Positions 5,981 to 40,779 of a DNA stretch of 44,842 nt are shown here, piece by piece. Below the pieces are notes generated by a model that was not told where the DNA came from, made no database searches, and was given only the letters and a program-made list of their open reading frames with translations. Position 1 is the first letter of the stretch. Each line of letters starts with the position of its first letter. The DNA comes from a bacterium (lineage in GTDB: Bacteria; Pseudomonadota; Gammaproteobacteria; GCA-002705445; GCA-002716945), in contig JAPOHH010000008.1 of the NCBI GenBank assembly GCA_029979505.1, forward strand, positions 1 through 44,842, given 5' to 3'. The position numbers were made by a program, and so were the translations under genes.

Positions 5981-7072
5981 CTATTTTAGCTTAACGTATA
6001 AGCCTCTTAAAACTTCCTCAGCAGCAGGGTTATTCATTTGTACAAAAGAATTGTTTTCAACAGTGATAAGGGTTGCTGAGCCATTACTGCCTCCCAGGTT
6101 GAGTCTTATAAATAATGACTCAGAGGATGATTTATCAAATATATTTGCAAAAAATCCATCATTACTTGTCTCTGTATCTCCTAAAAGGATTTTTACATAC
6201 CCATCAGATTGATTTTTCTCAATAATGTTTATTCCAAGAATTTCAAGAGCAGTAACTACTGCTGGAAACGTTCTTTCATAAATATCAGGAACAAATAAAG
6301 TTTGAAGACCTTTATCGTCTGAGTAAATAGAAACTGTATTTCTTATACCGGTTGACTTGGCTACAACATAACCTGCATCTCTGGCTTCATTACCTCCAAG
6401 ATAAATAAACATTCGACTAATCATTTCATTTTCGAATTCAGGATCTCTTGCTCTATTTTGCCATCTGAAATCAGAATCACCATCAGACATAAATTCTTTA
6501 CCATAGTGAGTAATTAAAATGTCATAGCCGTCAGGTTTTTTTATTAACCTTGTTTTATAACTATCTCTAGTCTCAGGTGAGACTAAGAGTGGTACATATC
6601 TCCCTACTATTCTTTGAACGGTTCCTAGTTGAACTTCGCTTAAGTTTTCGAGGTAGTTGGTTCTCATTGTTGAAACGGTTAAATCTGAATTCACCAGGAG
6701 AAAGCCTTCCTGTAACCAGAAACTTTTTATCTTATTCCATAAAGAGATTTTGTCTTGTGTTTTGACTGAAAGAAATATATTTGTTCCTTGCTTATATACC
6801 TTAACTCCTTCTAATACTGTATCTATAGTAAATAGTCTTTCACTATCATTTTCAATAATTTCTGGAAGTGACAAGGCGTTTTTTGTGTCAGGGTTATTTA
6901 GATTAGGAGGTATAATTAAATCAATTTGACCAGATGAATAATCCTCATTGGTTTTATAAACTAACTTTTCATTTCTGGGATCAGATAAAATATTTTTAGC
7001 ATAGTCTGTCATGCTGGAACAGCCCGTTATTAGAAATGTAGCAAATATGAAAACATATGTATTCTTACTCAT
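5981..7072 (-). CDS. bamC: Outer membrane assembly lipoprotein BamC
   Basis: BamC is an accessory lipoprotein of the BAM complex that inserts beta-barrel proteins into the outer membrane. The 363-residue protein has a lipoprotein signal ending ITGC, an extended N-terminal stretch containing the IDLIIPPNL motif that contacts BamD, then two helix-grip domains. It overlaps the end of dapA by 8 bases, the dapA-bamC order seen in gammaproteobacteria. purC, which follows bamC in E. coli, is not here; convergent folE2 is. Confidence 0.88.
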   Translation of the reverse strand: MSKNTYVFIFATFLITGCSSMTDYAKNILSDPRNEKLVYKTNEDYSSGQIDLIIPPNLNNPDTKNALSLPEIIENDSERLFTIDTVLEGVKVYKQGTNIFLSVKTQDKISLWNKIKSFWLQEGFLLVNSDLTVSTMRTNYLENLSEVQLGTVQRIVGRYVPLLVSPETRDSYKTRLIKKPDGYDILITHYGKEFMSDGDSDFRWQNRARDPEFENEMISRMFIYLGGNEARDAGYVVAKSTGIRNTVSIYSDDKGLQTLFVPDIYERTFPAVVTALEILGINIIEKNQSDGYVKILLGDTETSNDGFFANIFDKSSSESLFIRLNLGGSNGSATLITVENNSFVQMNNPAAEEVLRGLYVKLK

Positions 7073-7952
7073 TTATTACACCTGAATCTAAGAGAGCTTG
7101 GTTAAGTTGCTCATGATATTTTTTATCAAGCCAAGTTAATGGGAGCCTTATGCCTTTTTTTATGAGACCCATTCTATTGAGACACCATTTGACGGGAATT
7201 GGGTTTGACTCGCAGAATAACACATCATGAAGGATATCTATTTGTTTGTTTAATTCAGAAGCTTTCTTTAAATCTCCTTCCATAGCATGCTTACACATCA
7301 TATGCATTTGTTTAGGTGCAATATTTGCTGTTACTGAAATGTTTCCTGAAAATCCATCTATAAGATCGCTCATCGATGTTTTATCATCTCCGGTAAATAT
7401 CTGAATATTATCTGAGCATAAATTCATTAGCTCTGTTGATCGATTTTTATTACCAGAAGCCTCTTTGATGCCAACTATATTTTCATGTGTAGATAAGCGG
7501 TAGACTGTTTGTGGTTCCATATCTACAGATGTCCTTCCTGGAACATTATATAATATCTGAGGTATAGAAACATGATCAGCAATTTTTTTATAGTGCTGAT
7601 AAAGGCCCTCTTGGGTAGGTTTATTATAATATGGTGTTACTAGTAAACACCCATCGGCTCCATTTTTTTTAGCACTTTCTGTAAGCTCTATCGCTTCGGA
7701 TGTAGAGTTTGCACCCGTCCCAGCGATAACAGGTATCCTCCCTTTTACCAAATCAATCGTTGTCTTTATTACTCTAGAGTGTTCATTAAAATCTAGTGTT
7801 GCAGATTCACCAGTTGTACCAACTGATATTATTACATCAGTTGAATTCTCTATATGGAATTCTACGAGTTTTTCTAATGATTCAAAATCTAGTGATCCGT
7901 CTTCATTCATCGGAGTTGCTATTGCAACCATGCTCCCTTTAAAATTGCTCAT
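7065..7952 (-). CDS. dapA: 4-hydroxy-tetrahydrodipicolinate synthase
   Basis: DapA condenses pyruvate with aspartate semialdehyde, committing carbon to lysine and diaminopimelate. The start is set at 7952 (MSNFKGSMVAIATPM); a longer in-frame start at 8048 would add 32 residues unlike the family and run through the end of perM. The resulting 295 residues are standard length. Visible are GTTGES (45-50), Tyr135 in ILYNVPGRT and Schiff-base Lys163 in VGIKEASGN. It lies between perM and bamC in a minus-strand operon. Confidence 0.96.
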   Translation of the reverse strand: MSNFKGSMVAIATPMNEDGSLDFESLEKLVEFHIENSTDVIISVGTTGESATLDFNEHSRVIKTTIDLVKGRIPVIAGTGANSTSEAIELTESAKKNGADGCLLVTPYYNKPTQEGLYQHYKKIADHVSIPQILYNVPGRTSVDMEPQTVYRLSTHENIVGIKEASGNKNRSTELMNLCSDNIQIFTGDDKTSMSDLIDGFSGNISVTANIAPKQMHMMCKHAMEGDLKKASELNKQIDILHDVLFCESNPIPVKWCLNRMGLIKKGIRLPLTWLDKKYHEQLNQALLDSGVINE

Positions 7953-7954
7953 AA

Positions 7955-9013
7955 TCAACCTGCTGGCGACCTTTGAGGCCAAACATCCAAAATTGTACTT
8001 ATTAATACCGCTAGTGGTATGGCGAAGAAAACTCCCCAAATACCCCAAACAGAGCCAAAAAATAATATAGACAATAGTATAGCAAATGGGTGTATGTTTA
8101 CAGCATCAGAAAATAAAATCGGGACAACTACATTACCATCCAATGCCTGAATTAATAAATGGCCTATTATCACATACCAGAACTCCGATCCAAGTGCCCA
8201 CTGGAAATAGGCTACTAGAATAATTGGAATAGTGACTGCTATCATACCAACATATGGAATGATAACAGACAATCCGCATAAGAAGCTTAATAGCAATGAA
8301 TAATTCAGACCAAATGAAAAAAATATAATAAAGGATGCTATCCAGACAATCATTATTTCTATGAACTTACATCTAATGTAGTTACCTATTTTTAAATTTA
8401 ATTCTGAATATGCTCTTCTGGTCAAATCAAGTTTTTTTGGAAAAAATCTAGCAATCCAACCATTTATTGTTTCTTTATCAAACAGCATAAAAAATATCAT
8501 AATTGGAACCAAAATCGCATATACAATTATAGCAAAGAGACCACCTGCGGAAGCTAATGAGAATGTAAAGATTGAGTTACCTACTTTTGATGTTTCACCT
8601 TGTAATCCAAGAAATATATTATCAATATAATCTTTTGGCATGTATTCATTTTCATCATAAAGTCCTAAAATAAGCTGCTTACTCTTATTAAATATTTCAG
8701 GAAGAGATTTGACTAGCAATGTAAGTTGATCAAGAAGTAACGGTAACAGCATAAAAAGAGTTAAAATACTTAATATCAAAAATAGAAAGAACACCACAAT
8801 TACAGAAATATTCCTAGTAGCTGAAGTAGTTTTCATTAGATGCTGAACCAGCCCCTCCAACATATACGCTAAAACGACAGCCACTAATATTGGTGCGATT
8901 GTCTGCACTAATATATACGTCACTATGATAGAGAATATTAATACAAGTGCCAGAGAAACCTGATTAGGATCGGTAAAGTTATCTGTATACCAATCTTTTA
9001 TTAATTTTATCAT
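7955..9013 (-). CDS. perM: AI-2E/PerM-family membrane transporter
   Basis: A 352-residue polytopic protein with about eight helices. The C-terminal half carries the family pattern PYVGMIAVTIPIILVAYFQW, then VVVPILFSDAVNIHPFAIL and FGSVWGIWGVFFAIPLAVLI. PerM-family members are proposed permeases; substrates are uncertain, with AI-2 export described for TqsA only. It heads the perM-dapA-bamC run, two bases before dapA. In gammaproteobacteria perM is commonly found near hda and purM, as here. Confidence 0.88.
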   Translation of the reverse strand: MIKLIKDWYTDNFTDPNQVSLALVLIFSIIVTYILVQTIAPILVAVVLAYMLEGLVQHLMKTTSATRNISVIVVFFLFLILSILTLFMLLPLLLDQLTLLVKSLPEIFNKSKQLILGLYDENEYMPKDYIDNIFLGLQGETSKVGNSIFTFSLASAGGLFAIIVYAILVPIMIFFMLFDKETINGWIARFFPKKLDLTRRAYSELNLKIGNYIRCKFIEIMIVWIASFIIFFSFGLNYSLLLSFLCGLSVIIPYVGMIAVTIPIILVAYFQWALGSEFWYVIIGHLLIQALDGNVVVPILFSDAVNIHPFAILLSILFFGSVWGIWGVFFAIPLAVLISTILDVWPQRSPAG

Positions 9014-36073: not shown

Positions 36074-38041
36074 TTAGAATTTATACTCAATTGAGGCATC
36101 AAAGCCAAAACTAGATGCTGGGAGTGGAACATGATCTTTAACAAAAGATGCATGATTACGTCTAGTTTTATCCAATAAATTATTTACAAATAAATTAATA
36201 TTTAAATTATATAAATTATTGATTACTATTTTATTTGAATACTTTACGCCCAAGTCTAAATATGAGTTGGTAGATGTTTCAATTGACGAAAAATCACTTT
36301 GTCGCTCAGAATGAACTAAGTTTACTGAATATCTTTCATTATTTTTTAAAAGCATCACAATATCAATCATATTGCGAGCACTTGGTATCCTAGGAATATA
36401 CGTATCGTCATCAAATACACCAGATACATCGTCTCTGCTGACAGTTACAACTAACTCATTATCACCAAAAAAGTATGATTTCTCCATTGATAATTCATAT
36501 CCTTGAATAACTGCATTTTTCTGTGACCAGTCTGCATCTTGATGGTCACCATCATAGAGCGTTGTCCCCTTATCTCTTAAATAAATAAAATCATTTATAT
36601 TATTTTTATATAAACCAAATGATAAGAAAATGTTGTTAGATTTATAAGTTAACCCTAAATCAATGTTTCTTGATACTTCCCTATCAAGTACACTATTTCC
36701 TTTTTCATATCTTTGAGTAGGTCCATGTGCACCATCAGCAAAAAGCTCAGCCATGTTAGGGCTCCTTGAAACATGAGAATATCCAAAATTATAGCTAAGA
36801 TTATCACTGACTTTCTGATCTGTATAAGCAGCGAAACTTACAGCAGAATCCTCATAGCTTTTTGTAGCAGTGCTACGTTCATTGTTTTCGTATCTCATGA
36901 CAAGATCAAAATTATAACCAAGTAAATTATCAGTTGTATAGTACGCTAAAGAACGATTATAACTATCAGACGTTGGAACATAAGCGTTTGTGGACATAGG
37001 AGATTTAGTATGAGCATAGCCAAACAACAGACGTCTTTCTCTGTCGTTGGTATCAATATTAAATTTCAAATTCATAGATGAGGAATTATTATTCAAAACT
37101 TTAAAGCTGCCATCCTCTTCATGCTCTTTGATAGATGCATTTGAGTTGTTGAAAGAGAAATCAAGAAAGTTTGCAAAAGTTATATTGTCTAATCTTCCTT
37201 TTAATGTGTAAGTATCAGATTTATGAGCACTATATATTCTTGCTTCATGTTCTTCTTCCTCTTCCTCTTCTTCATGTGCGTGGTATGGAATCCCATAAGT
37301 TCCTTTAGTATTTTCATATGAAAGCCCTAAATATCCCCATTTTTTTAAAAAGGAAAGTCCTATAATAGTGTTTTTATCTGCAAAATCAGAGTTGTTTAAA
37401 GTATGTACTTCGGTGCCTTCTTCAAATAATGAACCTTCAGATAAATCATATTTGAAATAATCACGTTTGCTAGATGACAAATAAATGCTCATGTCATTAA
37501 TATTCTTCTTGAATAAAAAGCTATTAGCGTAACCCTCACTTACGCTATCAAATGATCTAGTAATCTTTATCTTTTCATCAGTATATGATTCATCTGTGAT
37601 TGAGCCAGTAATTACATTGACAACTCCTCCAGAAGTTCCACTGTGATTAAATAAAGATGATGGCCCTTTGATTATTTCAACATACTCAACATTGTCCATA
37701 TTAATCATAATTGGATGGTCTGCACTAAAATAACTTAGATCGCTTACATGATTATTATTTGACAAAACTTTTACTCGATCTCCACCTAAACCTCTTATAA
37801 CTGGTTGCCCAATTGCTGAACCATAATCTGAGTTAGATATGCCTGGTATAGATTTGATATTTGAACCAAGTGATTTAGACCCGTTGATATCAGTACCTTC
37901 AATTATCCTGATAGGCTGTCTATTATCAGATATGGTATTTGATAATATGGAGGATTTAACCTCAACAGTAGACAAATTATCTGCATTAGCCATAGATATA
38001 TGTAATATAGCCAAAAATGGCATGTATTTAAAAATTTTCAT
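36074..38041 (-). CDS. ZnuD-like TonB-dependent outer membrane receptor
   Basis: A 655-residue receptor with a signal peptide (about 1-20), plug domain (VIRGLGGDRVKVLSNN, then IEIIKGPSSLFNHSG-like sequence and GGVVNVITG at about 95-145), a barrel, and C-terminal Phe (EYKF). An extracellular loop at about 250-268 is His/Glu-rich (YHAHEEEEEEEEHEAR), as in zinc receptors of the ZnuD type. No classical TonB box is obvious. It lies downstream of a Cys/His-rich small protein gene. Zinc is the most likely substrate; other metals are possible. Confidence 0.85.
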   Translation of the reverse strand: MKIFKYMPFLAILHISMANADNLSTVEVKSSILSNTISDNRQPIRIIEGTDINGSKSLGSNIKSIPGISNSDYGSAIGQPVIRGLGGDRVKVLSNNNHVSDLSYFSADHPIMINMDNVEYVEIIKGPSSLFNHSGTSGGVVNVITGSITDESYTDEKIKITRSFDSVSEGYANSFLFKKNINDMSIYLSSSKRDYFKYDLSEGSLFEEGTEVHTLNNSDFADKNTIIGLSFLKKWGYLGLSYENTKGTYGIPYHAHEEEEEEEEHEARIYSAHKSDTYTLKGRLDNITFANFLDFSFNNSNASIKEHEEDGSFKVLNNNSSSMNLKFNIDTNDRERRLLFGYAHTKSPMSTNAYVPTSDSYNRSLAYYTTDNLLGYNFDLVMRYENNERSTATKSYEDSAVSFAAYTDQKVSDNLSYNFGYSHVSRSPNMAELFADGAHGPTQRYEKGNSVLDREVSRNIDLGLTYKSNNIFLSFGLYKNNINDFIYLRDKGTTLYDGDHQDADWSQKNAVIQGYELSMEKSYFFGDNELVVTVSRDDVSGVFDDDTYIPRIPSARNMIDIVMLLKNNERYSVNLVHSERQSDFSSIETSTNSYLDLGVKYSNKIVINNLYNLNINLFVNNLLDKTRRNHASFVKDHVPLPASSFGFDASIEYKF

Positions 38042-38072: not shown

Positions 38073-38309
38073 TTAGATAAATAATTCTGAGAGTGGTGGA
38101 TCACGAGTTTGAAAGTTATTTTTTGAACACTGTTCTTGTAGATTAATAACAGTCTGAGACAAAGTCTCCATAAAGCAATGATGCTCTTTTATAAAATATT
38201 GTGAATGTGACTTACCACAATGATTACAAATGTGCTGCTCATTATCATGAGAGTGTATTATTTCATCATGAGAATCGCAGTAATTGATTTGATCATGTTC
38301 TGTGCACAT
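38073..38309 (-). CDS. Cys/His-rich small protein upstream of the metal receptor
   Basis: A 78-residue protein without a signal peptide. The first 50 residues hold five His-x-x or Cys-x-x clusters (CTEHDQ, CDSHDEIIHSHD, HICNHCGKSHS, EHHCF), and the C terminus ends RDPPLSELFI. It could bind zinc or be a zinc-responsive partner of the adjacent receptor; the 31-base gap suggests one transcript. No family recognised with confidence. Confidence 0.6.
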   Translation of the reverse strand: MCTEHDQINYCDSHDEIIHSHDNEQHICNHCGKSHSQYFIKEHHCFMETLSQTVINLQEQCSKNNFQTRDPPLSELFI

Positions 38310-38372: not shown

Positions 38373-38930
38373 TCAAGTAATTTTATATTTTAACCGATGA
38401 TGTTCACAGTCTTTATGCATTTGTATAGTTATATCCTCATCCAGCGTTTTGTTTGCTAAATCTATTTCCTCTGACATAAGTTTTTTTTTGTTAATAGCAA
38501 TAAATAAGTCAAGACTAAATCGACATAATTCTCTATTTCCGAAGTCATGGTTTTTTCTCTCAAATCCAATTCTAGCTTCTTCATTTGTAGTTGAAAATAA
38601 AATAGCAGTCTTACCGTATGAGTCTTCATTACTATCTCCTTTGAATATATGCTGCCAAGTATAGACATTCATATTTAAATACTTAAGTTCAATTTTAGAT
38701 CTGGACCATTTGTCATGTAATCCAAAAATTTTAGATGGGTTTAGATTATCTTCTGGTAGTTTACTTGACCTGTGATTAATCCATATTTGTAGCTCTTCAA
38801 GGCATACTAAGTTTTTATAGAGATGCGCAGAATATTCTTTAATAAGTACTTCAGCAAGCTCAGCATTTTGGTCATTTGAGTATTTATTTAGAAGATATAT
38901 CACAAATCTTTTATATTCAGCATTTTTCAT
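38373..38930 (-). CDS. Hypothetical soluble protein, 185 residues
   Basis: A soluble, charged, mostly helical 185-residue protein without signal peptide or membrane helix. Segments worth searching are IFGLHDKWSRSKIELKYL and ARIGFERKNHDFGNRELCRF. No motif or family is recognised. It is divergent from the metal-responsive module downstream and points the same way as the receptor genes. Confidence 0.6.
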   Translation of the reverse strand: MKNAEYKRFVIYLLNKYSNDQNAELAEVLIKEYSAHLYKNLVCLEELQIWINHRSSKLPEDNLNPSKIFGLHDKWSRSKIELKYLNMNVYTWQHIFKGDSNEDSYGKTAILFSTTNEEARIGFERKNHDFGNRELCRFSLDLFIAINKKKLMSEEIDLANKTLDEDITIQMHKDCEHHRLKYKIT

Positions 38931-38947
38931 CTGTTATATTATAAAAT

Positions 38948-39037
38948 ATGAATGGTATTTATGTATTATATTTCGTCTTATGCGCTTTAGTTTATGCGGT
39001 TATCATGATGTGCCTTGATGATAATACAGATATTTAG
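38948..39037 (+). CDS. Possible 29-residue membrane peptide
   Basis: An ATG-initiated frame reads MNGIYVLYFVLCALVYAVIM and then a short acidic tail (CLDDNTDI). It is a single hydrophobic helix in the 161-base gap upstream of the copper-type operator. It could be a small inner-membrane protein or chance; no ribosome-binding site stands out. Confidence 0.3.
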   Translation: MNGIYVLYFVLCALVYAVIMMCLDDNTDI

Positions 39038-39055
39038 AGATACCTGTTTGAGTGT

Positions 39056-39084
39056 TTGACCTATGAATAGCTATATGTCAATAT
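39056..39084 (+). promoter_or_regulatory. Predicted promoter of the metal module
   Basis: TTGACC at 39056-39061 is a good -35. A 17-base spacer leads to CAATAT at 39079-39084, weak but preceded by TGT (extended -10). The start point would fall near 39091-39092, exactly at the ATG of the outer-membrane protein gene, so the message may be leaderless. Confidence 0.45.
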
Positions 39085-39100
39085 ACCCCCTATGGGTATA
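39082..39100. promoter_or_regulatory. CsoR-type operator overlapping -10 and start codon
   Basis: Perfect 7-base inverted arms TATACCC and GGGTATA flank a five-base centre (CCTAT). The TACCCC-TATGGGTA pattern is that of Cu(I)-responsive CsoR operators, and a CsoR-family gene lies 1.4 kb downstream in the same run. The site covers the predicted -10, start point and the ATG at 39092. Repressor binding here would block the whole module. Confidence 0.75.
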
Positions 39101-39700
39101 TATAATAAATTAATAATATTTTTCGTAAGTGTACTAATATCTGAAATCACAATATCAAGGCCAATATCTTGGTCAGGTGGGTCGACATTTATGTATAAAT
39201 CAAACTCAATGATTTCATCCTATTACTACCATTTCTCTCCATCATATAAATATTCATTAGGAGTAGAGTACATCAATGATAGATATTTTAATAATCAATA
39301 CGTCAGCTTAAAATCGACCTATTTGCTTGGGAGAAGTAATACTAAATTTTCACAAGGGAACTTGTATTTTACCGGAGGTTTATCAACAAAAAGCTCAAAG
39401 GAATATTATTATGGGATACATGGTGATTGGGAAACTAGAAGGTGGTTTACATCATTTTCACAACTAGATAAGAATACTAGTACCCATGATTACACTGAAC
39501 GTGAAATCCAATTAGGCTTTGCTCCTTATCTGGGTGAATATGATGAGCTTCATTCTTGGATTATGTTAAAAACAAAAAAAGATACTATTAATGATAACTG
39601 GCAAACTTACCCATTCTTAAAGTTTTTTAAAGGAGATTATTTAATGGAAATAGGAACTAAAGACTCACATTGGGATTTTCATTACATGATTAGATTCTAG
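39092..39700 (+). CDS. Outer-membrane beta-barrel-like protein of the metal module
   Basis: A 202-residue protein with a signal peptide (about 1-22) followed by aromatic-rich alternating strands (SSYYYHFSPSYKYSLGVEYI, then TRRWFTSFSQLDKN) and a C-terminal Phe (YMIRF), typical of outer-membrane barrels. The ATG lies inside the CsoR-type operator; no later start would keep the signal peptide. No family recognised. A role in metal passage or envelope response is inferred from the operon. Confidence 0.65.
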   Translation: MGIYNKLIIFFVSVLISEITISRPISWSGGSTFMYKSNSMISSYYYHFSPSYKYSLGVEYINDRYFNNQYVSLKSTYLLGRSNTKFSQGNLYFTGGLSTKSSKEYYYGIHGDWETRRWFTSFSQLDKNTSTHDYTEREIQLGFAPYLGEYDELHSWIMLKTKKDTINDNWQTYPFLKFFKGDYLMEIGTKDSHWDFHYMIRF

Positions 39701-39714
39701 AATAGGAGAAAAAT

Positions 39715-40134
39715 ATGTATAAATTATTTTTAATTACAATCATCATTATTTCAATTCCATCTTATGGTATGGATAATCATGGTAATCATAATCACTCTGA
39801 TCATCATCATAATCATCAACATGATTCTAATGCGGGTGTAGATGGATCTTTGACGCAACTAGATGAGAAAATGTATCAACAATTTATATCAGATATTAAT
39901 GATGGACAGGTAGCAATTGTAGATGTTAACGGAATGGTATGTGATTTTTGTGCGAGAGGAATAGAAAAAACATTCTATAGAGACGAGATGGTCAAAAAAA
40001 TTAGAGTTAGTCTAGAGTCTGGAAAAGTATTAATTGCATACTCTAATTCTAAGAAAATAAGTTTTGAAGAAATAGCGAAGATATTTCTAGATAATGGGCA
40101 GACAGCTGTTGGCTTTGAATTAAGGAAGTTATAA
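39715..40134 (+). CDS. Periplasmic HMA-domain protein with His-rich N terminus
   Basis: A 139-residue protein with a signal peptide (about 1-18), a His-rich stretch (NHGNHNHSDHHHNHQHD, residues 21-37), and a heavy-metal-associated domain (about 66-136) with the metal site GMVCDFCARGIEKTF (Cys76, Cys79). It resembles MerP-type periplasmic metal carriers. AGGAG stands 6 bases before its ATG. It is followed after two bases by the MerT-like gene, so it probably hands metal to that transporter. Confidence 0.85.
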   Translation: MYKLFLITIIIISIPSYGMDNHGNHNHSDHHHNHQHDSNAGVDGSLTQLDEKMYQQFISDINDGQVAIVDVNGMVCDFCARGIEKTFYRDEMVKKIRVSLESGKVLIAYSNSKKISFEEIAKIFLDNGQTAVGFELRKL

Positions 40135-40136
40135 AA

Positions 40137-40514
40137 ATGTCTAAAAATCAAGAATCATCTAAACTGGGTATAATTACATTATTGGTTTCATCATCGACTT
40201 TAATATGTTGTGCGCTCCCAGCGGTTTTTGTTTTACTTGGTGCAGGAGCAACTTTTGCATCACTAGTAAGTACCTTTCCAGAATTGATAATAATTTCTCA
40301 CTACAAAATACAAATTTCAATATTTACACTTATTGTTCTTATTACTGCTGGGTTCTTAATAAAGAAGTCAGAGTCTTTACCTTGTCCCGTTGATCCAGAA
40401 TTGAGATTTATTTGTCTAAAAACTAGAAAAAAAAATAAATATATTTTTTTATTTTCTGTTGGGATTTTTTTGTTTGCAAGTATATTTACATATATACTTC
40501 CTATATATTTATAA
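40137..40514 (+). CDS. MerT-like heavy-metal membrane protein
   Basis: A 125-residue protein with three to four membrane helices. The first contains adjacent cysteines in TLICCALPAVFVLLGAGATF (Cys24, Cys25), as in MerT/MerC family proteins; a second pair lies in PCPVDPELRFIC (Cys83, Cys93). These proteins move thiophilic metals across the inner membrane. Pairing with an HMA protein and a CsoR regulator suggests copper or another soft metal rather than mercury, since no merA or merR is present. Confidence 0.72.
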   Translation: MSKNQESSKLGIITLLVSSSTLICCALPAVFVLLGAGATFASLVSTFPELIIISHYKIQISIFTLIVLITAGFLIKKSESLPCPVDPELRFICLKTRKKNKYIFLFSVGIFLFASIFTYILPIYL

Positions 40515-40515
40515 A

Positions 40516-40779
40516 ATGAAAACTCATCCATCTCATAAAAACCAATTGGCATCTTTAAAAAGAATAGAAGGTCAAATTAGAGGAATAATAAATATGATTG
40601 ATGATGGCAAATACTGTGTTGATGTTATTAATCAAATAAAAGCAGCAAAATCAGCTTTAGTTACAGTAGAGTCAAAAATATTGAAAAAACATATTGAATC
40701 TTGTGTTAAAGAATCTCTTAAAGACAAAAGAGCTTTAGATAATAAAGTTGATGAGCTACTCAAGCTTATAAATAAATAG
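40516..40779 (+). CDS. csoR: CsoR-family copper-sensing repressor
   Basis: An 87-residue all-helical regulator (KTHPSHKNQLASLKRIEGQI, then IRGIINMIDDGKYCVDVINQ). Cys34, His59 and Cys63 have the same 25- and 4-residue spacing as the Cu(I) ligands Cys36/His61/Cys65 of mycobacterial CsoR, which separates it from RcnR, FrmR and CstR. ATG 40516 overlaps nothing and is one base after the MerT-like stop; an upstream start at 40459 lies inside that gene. It probably represses its own module through the 39082-39100 operator. Confidence 0.85.
   Translation: MKTHPSHKNQLASLKRIEGQIRGIINMIDDGKYCVDVINQIKAAKSALVTVESKILKKHIESCVKESLKDKRALDNKVDELLKLINK

Follow-up and report, generated by a model that had tools for sequence, protein, structure and literature searches.

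A putative CsoR-type operator enclosing the start codon of a candidate metal-handling operon in Gammaproteobacteria

Can a repressor site, a core promoter and the beginning of a coding sequence share the same few bases? This question is raised by a perfect inverted repeat in contig JAPOHH010000008.1, whose 44,842 nucleotides, the whole stretch of DNA that was analysed, are referred to here as the window. The close relatives of its source are uncultured marine Gammaproteobacteria. A preliminary description, made from the sequence alone, had placed a perfect TATACCC-CCTAT-GGGTATA repeat around the ATG at 39092, and the sequence reads exactly so, with TATACCC at 39082-39088, CCTAT at 39089-39093 and GGGTATA at 39094-39100. 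The features of the locus are listed below.

39056 to 39061, plus strand: predicted -35 element TTGACC (-36 to -31); TTGA is kept in the loci of families f1 and f132
39076 to 39078, plus strand: TGn extended -10 motif (-16 to -14); G at -15 in 22 of 37 non-redundant loci, 0.96 bit
39079 to 39084, plus strand: predicted -10 element CAATAT (-13 to -8), overlapping the left operator arm; TAATAT in most relatives
39082 to 39100, plus strand: putative CsoR-type operator TATACCC-N5-GGGTATA, a perfect inverted repeat; six inner pairs invariant in 37 non-redundant loci
39092 to 39094, plus strand: start codon inside the operator, its A being the predicted +1; same place in 48 of 48 loci
39092 to 39700, plus strand: 202-aa signal-peptide protein, outer-membrane beta-barrel-like, without Pfam or NCBIfam match
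39715 to 40134, plus strand: 139-aa exported His-rich protein with an HMA domain (CDFC); PF00403, E 1.6e-5
40137 to 40514, plus strand: 125-aa MerT-like membrane protein; PF02411, E 0.011
40516 to 40779, plus strand: CsoR-family repressor of 87 aa, C34-H59-C63; PF02583, E 7.4e-27

The box and its link to csoR

The arms of the box are perfect over 7 bp each, or over 8 bp once positions 39081 and 39101 are counted. Arbitrary perfect 7-5-7 inverted repeats are common, with 14 in the window and about 157 expected genome-wide, so that the symmetry by itself is unremarkable; it is the specific sequence and its position that stand out. In the 917-kb assembly, the exact pattern TATACCC-N5-GGGTATA was observed once, compared to 0.0013 occurrences expected under a first-order model, and when two mismatches were permitted, one further weak match was found as opposed to five for the backward control. 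When the exact pattern was searched for class-wide, it was no commoner than its backward control. The weight of the argument therefore rests on the location and conservation of the box, not on match counts. The window site (TATACCCCCTATGGGTATA) contains the TAC-X9-GTA inverted repeat with C/G tracts that characterizes type 2 CsoR operators.

Of the 25 genomes of the window's family (f1), 14 have the orthologous gene; it is also present in 32 of the 107 genomes of a second family (f174) and, singly, in families f4, f132, f163 and f47. We inspected 48 loci from these families, leaving out the f174 genomes G492 and G429; the family of G267 is represented by three genomes and that of G027 by one, and each adds a single case. 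At each of the 48 CsoR-type orthologous loci, the box encloses the start codon, and the distance from this codon to the right arm is the same. The exceptions are small: a 4-nt spacer in G483, a GTG start in G406 and variation in the outermost bases. The gene csoR lies in the same operon at 46 of the 48 loci, and at the other two (G021 and G027) the contig ends first.

Box and repressor gene occur together. All 46 testable box loci have csoR, compared to none of five operons without an adjacent csoR that have the box. These five are homologous operons with the same three structural genes, four of them in families f45, f40, f131 and f87 (L114 to L117) and one being a second copy in genome G023 (L079). 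Neither the box nor a Met-Gly-Ile start was found in any of them (0/5), and three of L114 to L117 have a Shine-Dalgarno-like sequence before the start. Other CsoR boxes in the class lie 57-67 nt before csoR (box start to ATG) or 29 nt before an ATPase-like gene. Since these boxes are all upstream of the respective starts, the placement over the start codon is specific to the operon described here. A second exact box (TATACCCCTAATGGGTATA) was observed at 8059-8077 of one locus (L077, G018:C13). It precedes a 423-aa ORF on the minus strand by 65 nt, lies 2.4 kb from the operon box of the same genome and is a possible second CsoR target. In two families, a sequence resembling the 3' end of a tRNA gene lies directly upstream of the operon (L112 in G199, L116 in G154), which might mark an insertion point.

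A perfect repeat around a start codon could also be an RNA hairpin that hides this codon in a leadered mRNA, as in a thermometer or attenuator, rather than a DNA operator. This reading would account for the perfect symmetry and for two loci in which C-G replaces T-A at the outermost position. However, the box occurs only with csoR, the six inner pairs never vary and thus offer no covariation, and the outermost pair is broken in 10 of the 37 non-redundant loci. Moreover, the left arm would be absent from a leaderless message. An Rfam search returned no match. The hairpin was rejected on these pair counts, and we regard it as highly improbable.

Promoter, start point and coding constraint

According to the preliminary description, the box overlaps the predicted -10 element, the predicted start point and the ATG, and TTGACC at 39056 serves as the -35 element. 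Both statements agree with the sequence and with its conservation. TTGACC and CAATAT are separated by 17 bp. Conservation was calculated per column for the 37 non-redundant loci (upstream identity below 70%). T at -13 was found in 35 of the 37, and A at -12 and T at -8 in all of them. Columns -13, -12 and -11 contain 1.20, 1.45 and 0.55 bit, compared to 0.01, 0.14 and 0.24 bit in the mirror columns to the right of the box. This conservation of TAATAT on the left side only, which is shared by the G at -15 and by TTGA, indicates that a promoter is overlaid on the operator, because operator symmetry cannot account for the asymmetry and a -10 element can. In families f1 and f132 (the window's family and G267), TTGA lies 16-18 bp from the -10 element in 13 of 13 non-redundant loci, and the mean -35 score was 5.0 compared to 2.63 in shuffled sequences, with none of 2000 shuffles reaching it.

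It is also conceivable that the operator is real but that the main promoter lies further upstream and gives an ordinary leader, with CsoR forming a roadblock at the start codon. Indeed, the -10 element of the window is poor when taken alone (three of six consensus positions), a scan of 38900-39300 with the sigma-70 consensus found no promoter, and in f174 the -35 element is weak (3.26 compared to 2.64 in shuffles). TAnnnT is, moreover, often expected near starts by chance in DNA of 30% GC. What makes the promoter call convincing is solely that the same positions are conserved in the relatives: TAATAT, the G at -15 and TTGA are kept, on the left side only, around one fixed start, and apart from the columns of promoter and box none is conserved as far as -50. 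Therefore, an upstream promoter seems unlikely to us.

For the promoter overlaid on the box, the start point can be predicted. Downstream of the -10 element follows ACCCCCY, and the A of the ATG is the eighth base; a pyrimidine at -1 and a purine at +1 were found in 46 of 46 loci. It was previously shown that transcription prefers to start about 7 bp downstream of the -10 element, later with pyrimidine-rich discriminators, and with Y at -1 and R at +1 (PMC5730371). From these preferences, the position of the -10 element and the pyrimidine run, +1 is predicted to be the A of ATG 39092. The site thus has the geometry of a leaderless promoter, with the -10 element at -13 to -8 and YA at -1/+1. 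The message would probably be leaderless, although a leader of one or two nucleotides is also possible. Shine-Dalgarno-like motifs are scarce in the window, where we found them at only 6 of 43 gene starts, so that their absence at this gene is weak evidence for a leaderless message. Given this count, the lineage may depend on initiation that is independent of such motifs.

ATG 39092 is the sole plausible start of the first gene. An in-frame stop (TAG) is located at 39068-39070 and is followed by no ATG, GTG or TTG before 39092; downstream, an in-frame ATG does not recur until codon 34. The right arm of the box is thus coding. At all 48 orthologous loci, the first gene begins with Met-Gly-Ile or Met-Gly-Met. 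Codon usage was compared in the non-redundant loci; since related sequences are not independent, the following figures are descriptive and carry no P values. Codon 2 is GGT in 37 of 37 loci, compared to 41% of the other Gly codons in these genes, and where codon 3 encodes Ile it is ATA in 32 of 34, compared to 35% elsewhere in these genes; in three loci codon 3 is ATG (Met). The residue entropy is 0 and 0.4 bits at residues 2 and 3, compared to 2-3.4 bits at residues 4-25, and the residues of the signal peptide vary freely from position 4 onward. These results back the earlier proposal that the site constrains the N terminus of the protein, and they support the view that the coding right half-site fixes the first three residues of the precursor.

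Exported proteins may be under constraint at their N termini in their own right, and Met-Gly-Ile might be kept for export or stability, with a right arm that matches the left one by coincidence. Yet GGT in 37 of 37 and ATA in 32 of 34 loci go beyond any coding need, the start Met-Gly-Ile is missing from the homologs that have no csoR next to them, and three loci have Met at codon 3. This explanation was rejected on the codon counts and is hardly credible.

Operon genes and the sensed metal

The operon encodes, in this order, the outer-membrane-barrel-like protein, the HMA protein, the MerT-like protein and CsoR, with gaps of 14, 2 and 1 nt. An AlphaFold2 model of the 202-aa protein (mean pLDDT 70) shows an N-terminal helix and 12 strands, and the top Foldseek matches were beta-barrels of the outer-membrane type (best E 2.5e-4, TM about 0.5). 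On the basis of this model we call the protein barrel-like, and no further. The HMA protein passes the gathering score of PF00403 (25.6 compared to 24.8 bits) with CDFC as its CxxC motif, and its matches to CopZ-type NCBIfam families are below the cut-off. The 125-aa protein has a Cys-Cys in its first transmembrane segment and a Cys pair in a loop; since it stays below the gathering score of PF02411 (16.2 compared to 32.9 bits), we call it MerT-like only. The CsoR gene that the first reading had located at 40516 is borne out by its PF02583 match (94 bits compared to a cut-off of 22.8) and by its ligands. The latter (C34, H59 and C63) are kept in 47 of 47 complete orthologs and form the C-H-C set of Cu(I)-sensing CsoRs. 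Of the solved structures, those of copper sensors are closest to the protein, with a match to Streptomyces lividans CsoR (4adz) at E 8e-15.

Two further observations concern neighbouring genes. In the lineage of one locus (L075, G305), the operon may include a further gene: an ORF at 6795-7454, encoding a 219-aa membrane-protein-like product, overlaps the csoR end. In the window, the minus strand encodes at 36074-38041 a TonB receptor that is nearest to ZnuD (below cut-off) and has a His/Glu-rich loop (HEEEEEEEEHEAR); it adjoins a His/Cys-rich 78-aa ORF without family match (38073-38309, minus strand), and the two are perhaps a zinc uptake pair.

The same architecture might respond to a metal other than copper, such as Hg, Ag, Zn or Cd. 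The structural genes resemble Mer-type transport no less than copper handling, as MerT-like and HMA genes are present, and for the CsoR of Bradyrhizobium, which has the same box, a response to Zn and Cd is known as well (PMC5057107). On the other hand, ligand set and box are those of copper-type CsoRs, and the operon contains no mercuric reductase. We consider a metal other than copper possible, but not probable. The mercury transport system MerT/MerP likewise has a membrane protein with paired cysteines beside an HMA protein. In contrast, the proteins described here are below the cut-offs for MerT and MerP, and the operon lacks merA and merR, has a CsoR gene as its putative regulator and encodes an additional outer-membrane-barrel-like protein.

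Proposed regulation and known systems

Considering the observed sequence, its conservation and geometry, the operon linkage and the C-H-C ligands, we propose, with a probability of roughly 0.8, that the site serves the barrel-HMA-MerT-like-CsoR operon as promoter and as operator for its own CsoR, and yields a leaderless message. By analogy with CsoR homologs and the Bradyrhizobium case, CsoR would bind TATACCC-N5-GGGTATA. In its apo form it would thereby cover the -10 element, the start point and the first three codons and exclude RNA polymerase. Metal-bound CsoR, the metal probably being Cu(I), would release the DNA. Transcription would then begin on the A of the ATG or one to two bases away, and the leaderless message would need no Shine-Dalgarno site. 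Since the right half-site is read AUG GGU AUA, the operator would fix the N terminus of the precursor as Met-Gly-Ile.

Leaderless CsoR-family promoters are already known from Bradyrhizobium csoR and Mesorhizobium nreA, as is the consensus of the box. In the csoR-cueA divergon of Bradyrhizobium liaoningense, a CsoR-regulated TATACCC-N5-GGGTATA lies over the -10 element, and RACE placed the 5' end of the csoR message on the A of the ATG, so that it is leaderless (PMC5057107). Both systems share this box consensus over the -10 element and a C-H-C CsoR in a Gram-negative bacterium. The published box, however, is without the ATG and is described as upstream of the start, whereas the start codon is inside the box here. 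Furthermore, the Bradyrhizobium site is bidirectional and controls csoR and a P-type ATPase gene, whereas csoR is the last gene of the operon described here.

Mesorhizobium nreAXY is under control of a CsoR/RcnR-family repressor, with an inverted-repeat operator in the core promoter and a leaderless mRNA that starts at the ATG according to RACE (PMC12724321). It resembles our operon in repressor family and in having the operator in the core promoter; the start at the ATG was mapped there and is predicted here. Unlike our operon, nreAXY is nickel responsive, has a different box and begins with the csoR-like gene, and its operator is located in the spacer (-30 to -12) and not across the start codon.

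In Streptomyces lividans, type 2 CsoR operators have the consensus ATATACCCCTNAGGGGTATAT, and binding of two tetramers was demonstrated by ITC (PMC3902906). The TAC-X9-GTA spacing fits the window site. In contrast to the latter, the Streptomyces sites are upstream of copZA and csoR genes, and the passages of that paper that we consulted report no overlap with a start codon.

A search for CsoR-family operators that overlap the start codon of a leaderless message, in the literature open without subscription, yielded only the precedents from Bradyrhizobium and Mesorhizobium. None of the searched papers was found to describe a start codon within the operator, a coding half-site that would fix an N terminus in six families, or this operon. 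We think it rather probable that start-codon-centred CsoR promoters of this kind form a widespread class, that their coding right half-site freezes Met-Gly-Ile/Met, that they are gained or lost together with csoR, and that they control an undescribed metal-handling operon (outer-membrane barrel, HMA and MerT-like proteins).

In this layout, one 19-bp stretch would combine a putative repressor site with a section of the core promoter, the start of transcription, the start codon and coding sequence, and the layout is held across at least six families of one bacterial class. It would be an example of a repressor site dictating protein sequence, as the N terminus is frozen with csoR and free without it. 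The layout would tie leaderless translation to metal stress, and it may be used as a sequence rule when CsoR-controlled metal operons are sought in uncultured, streamlined marine genomes.
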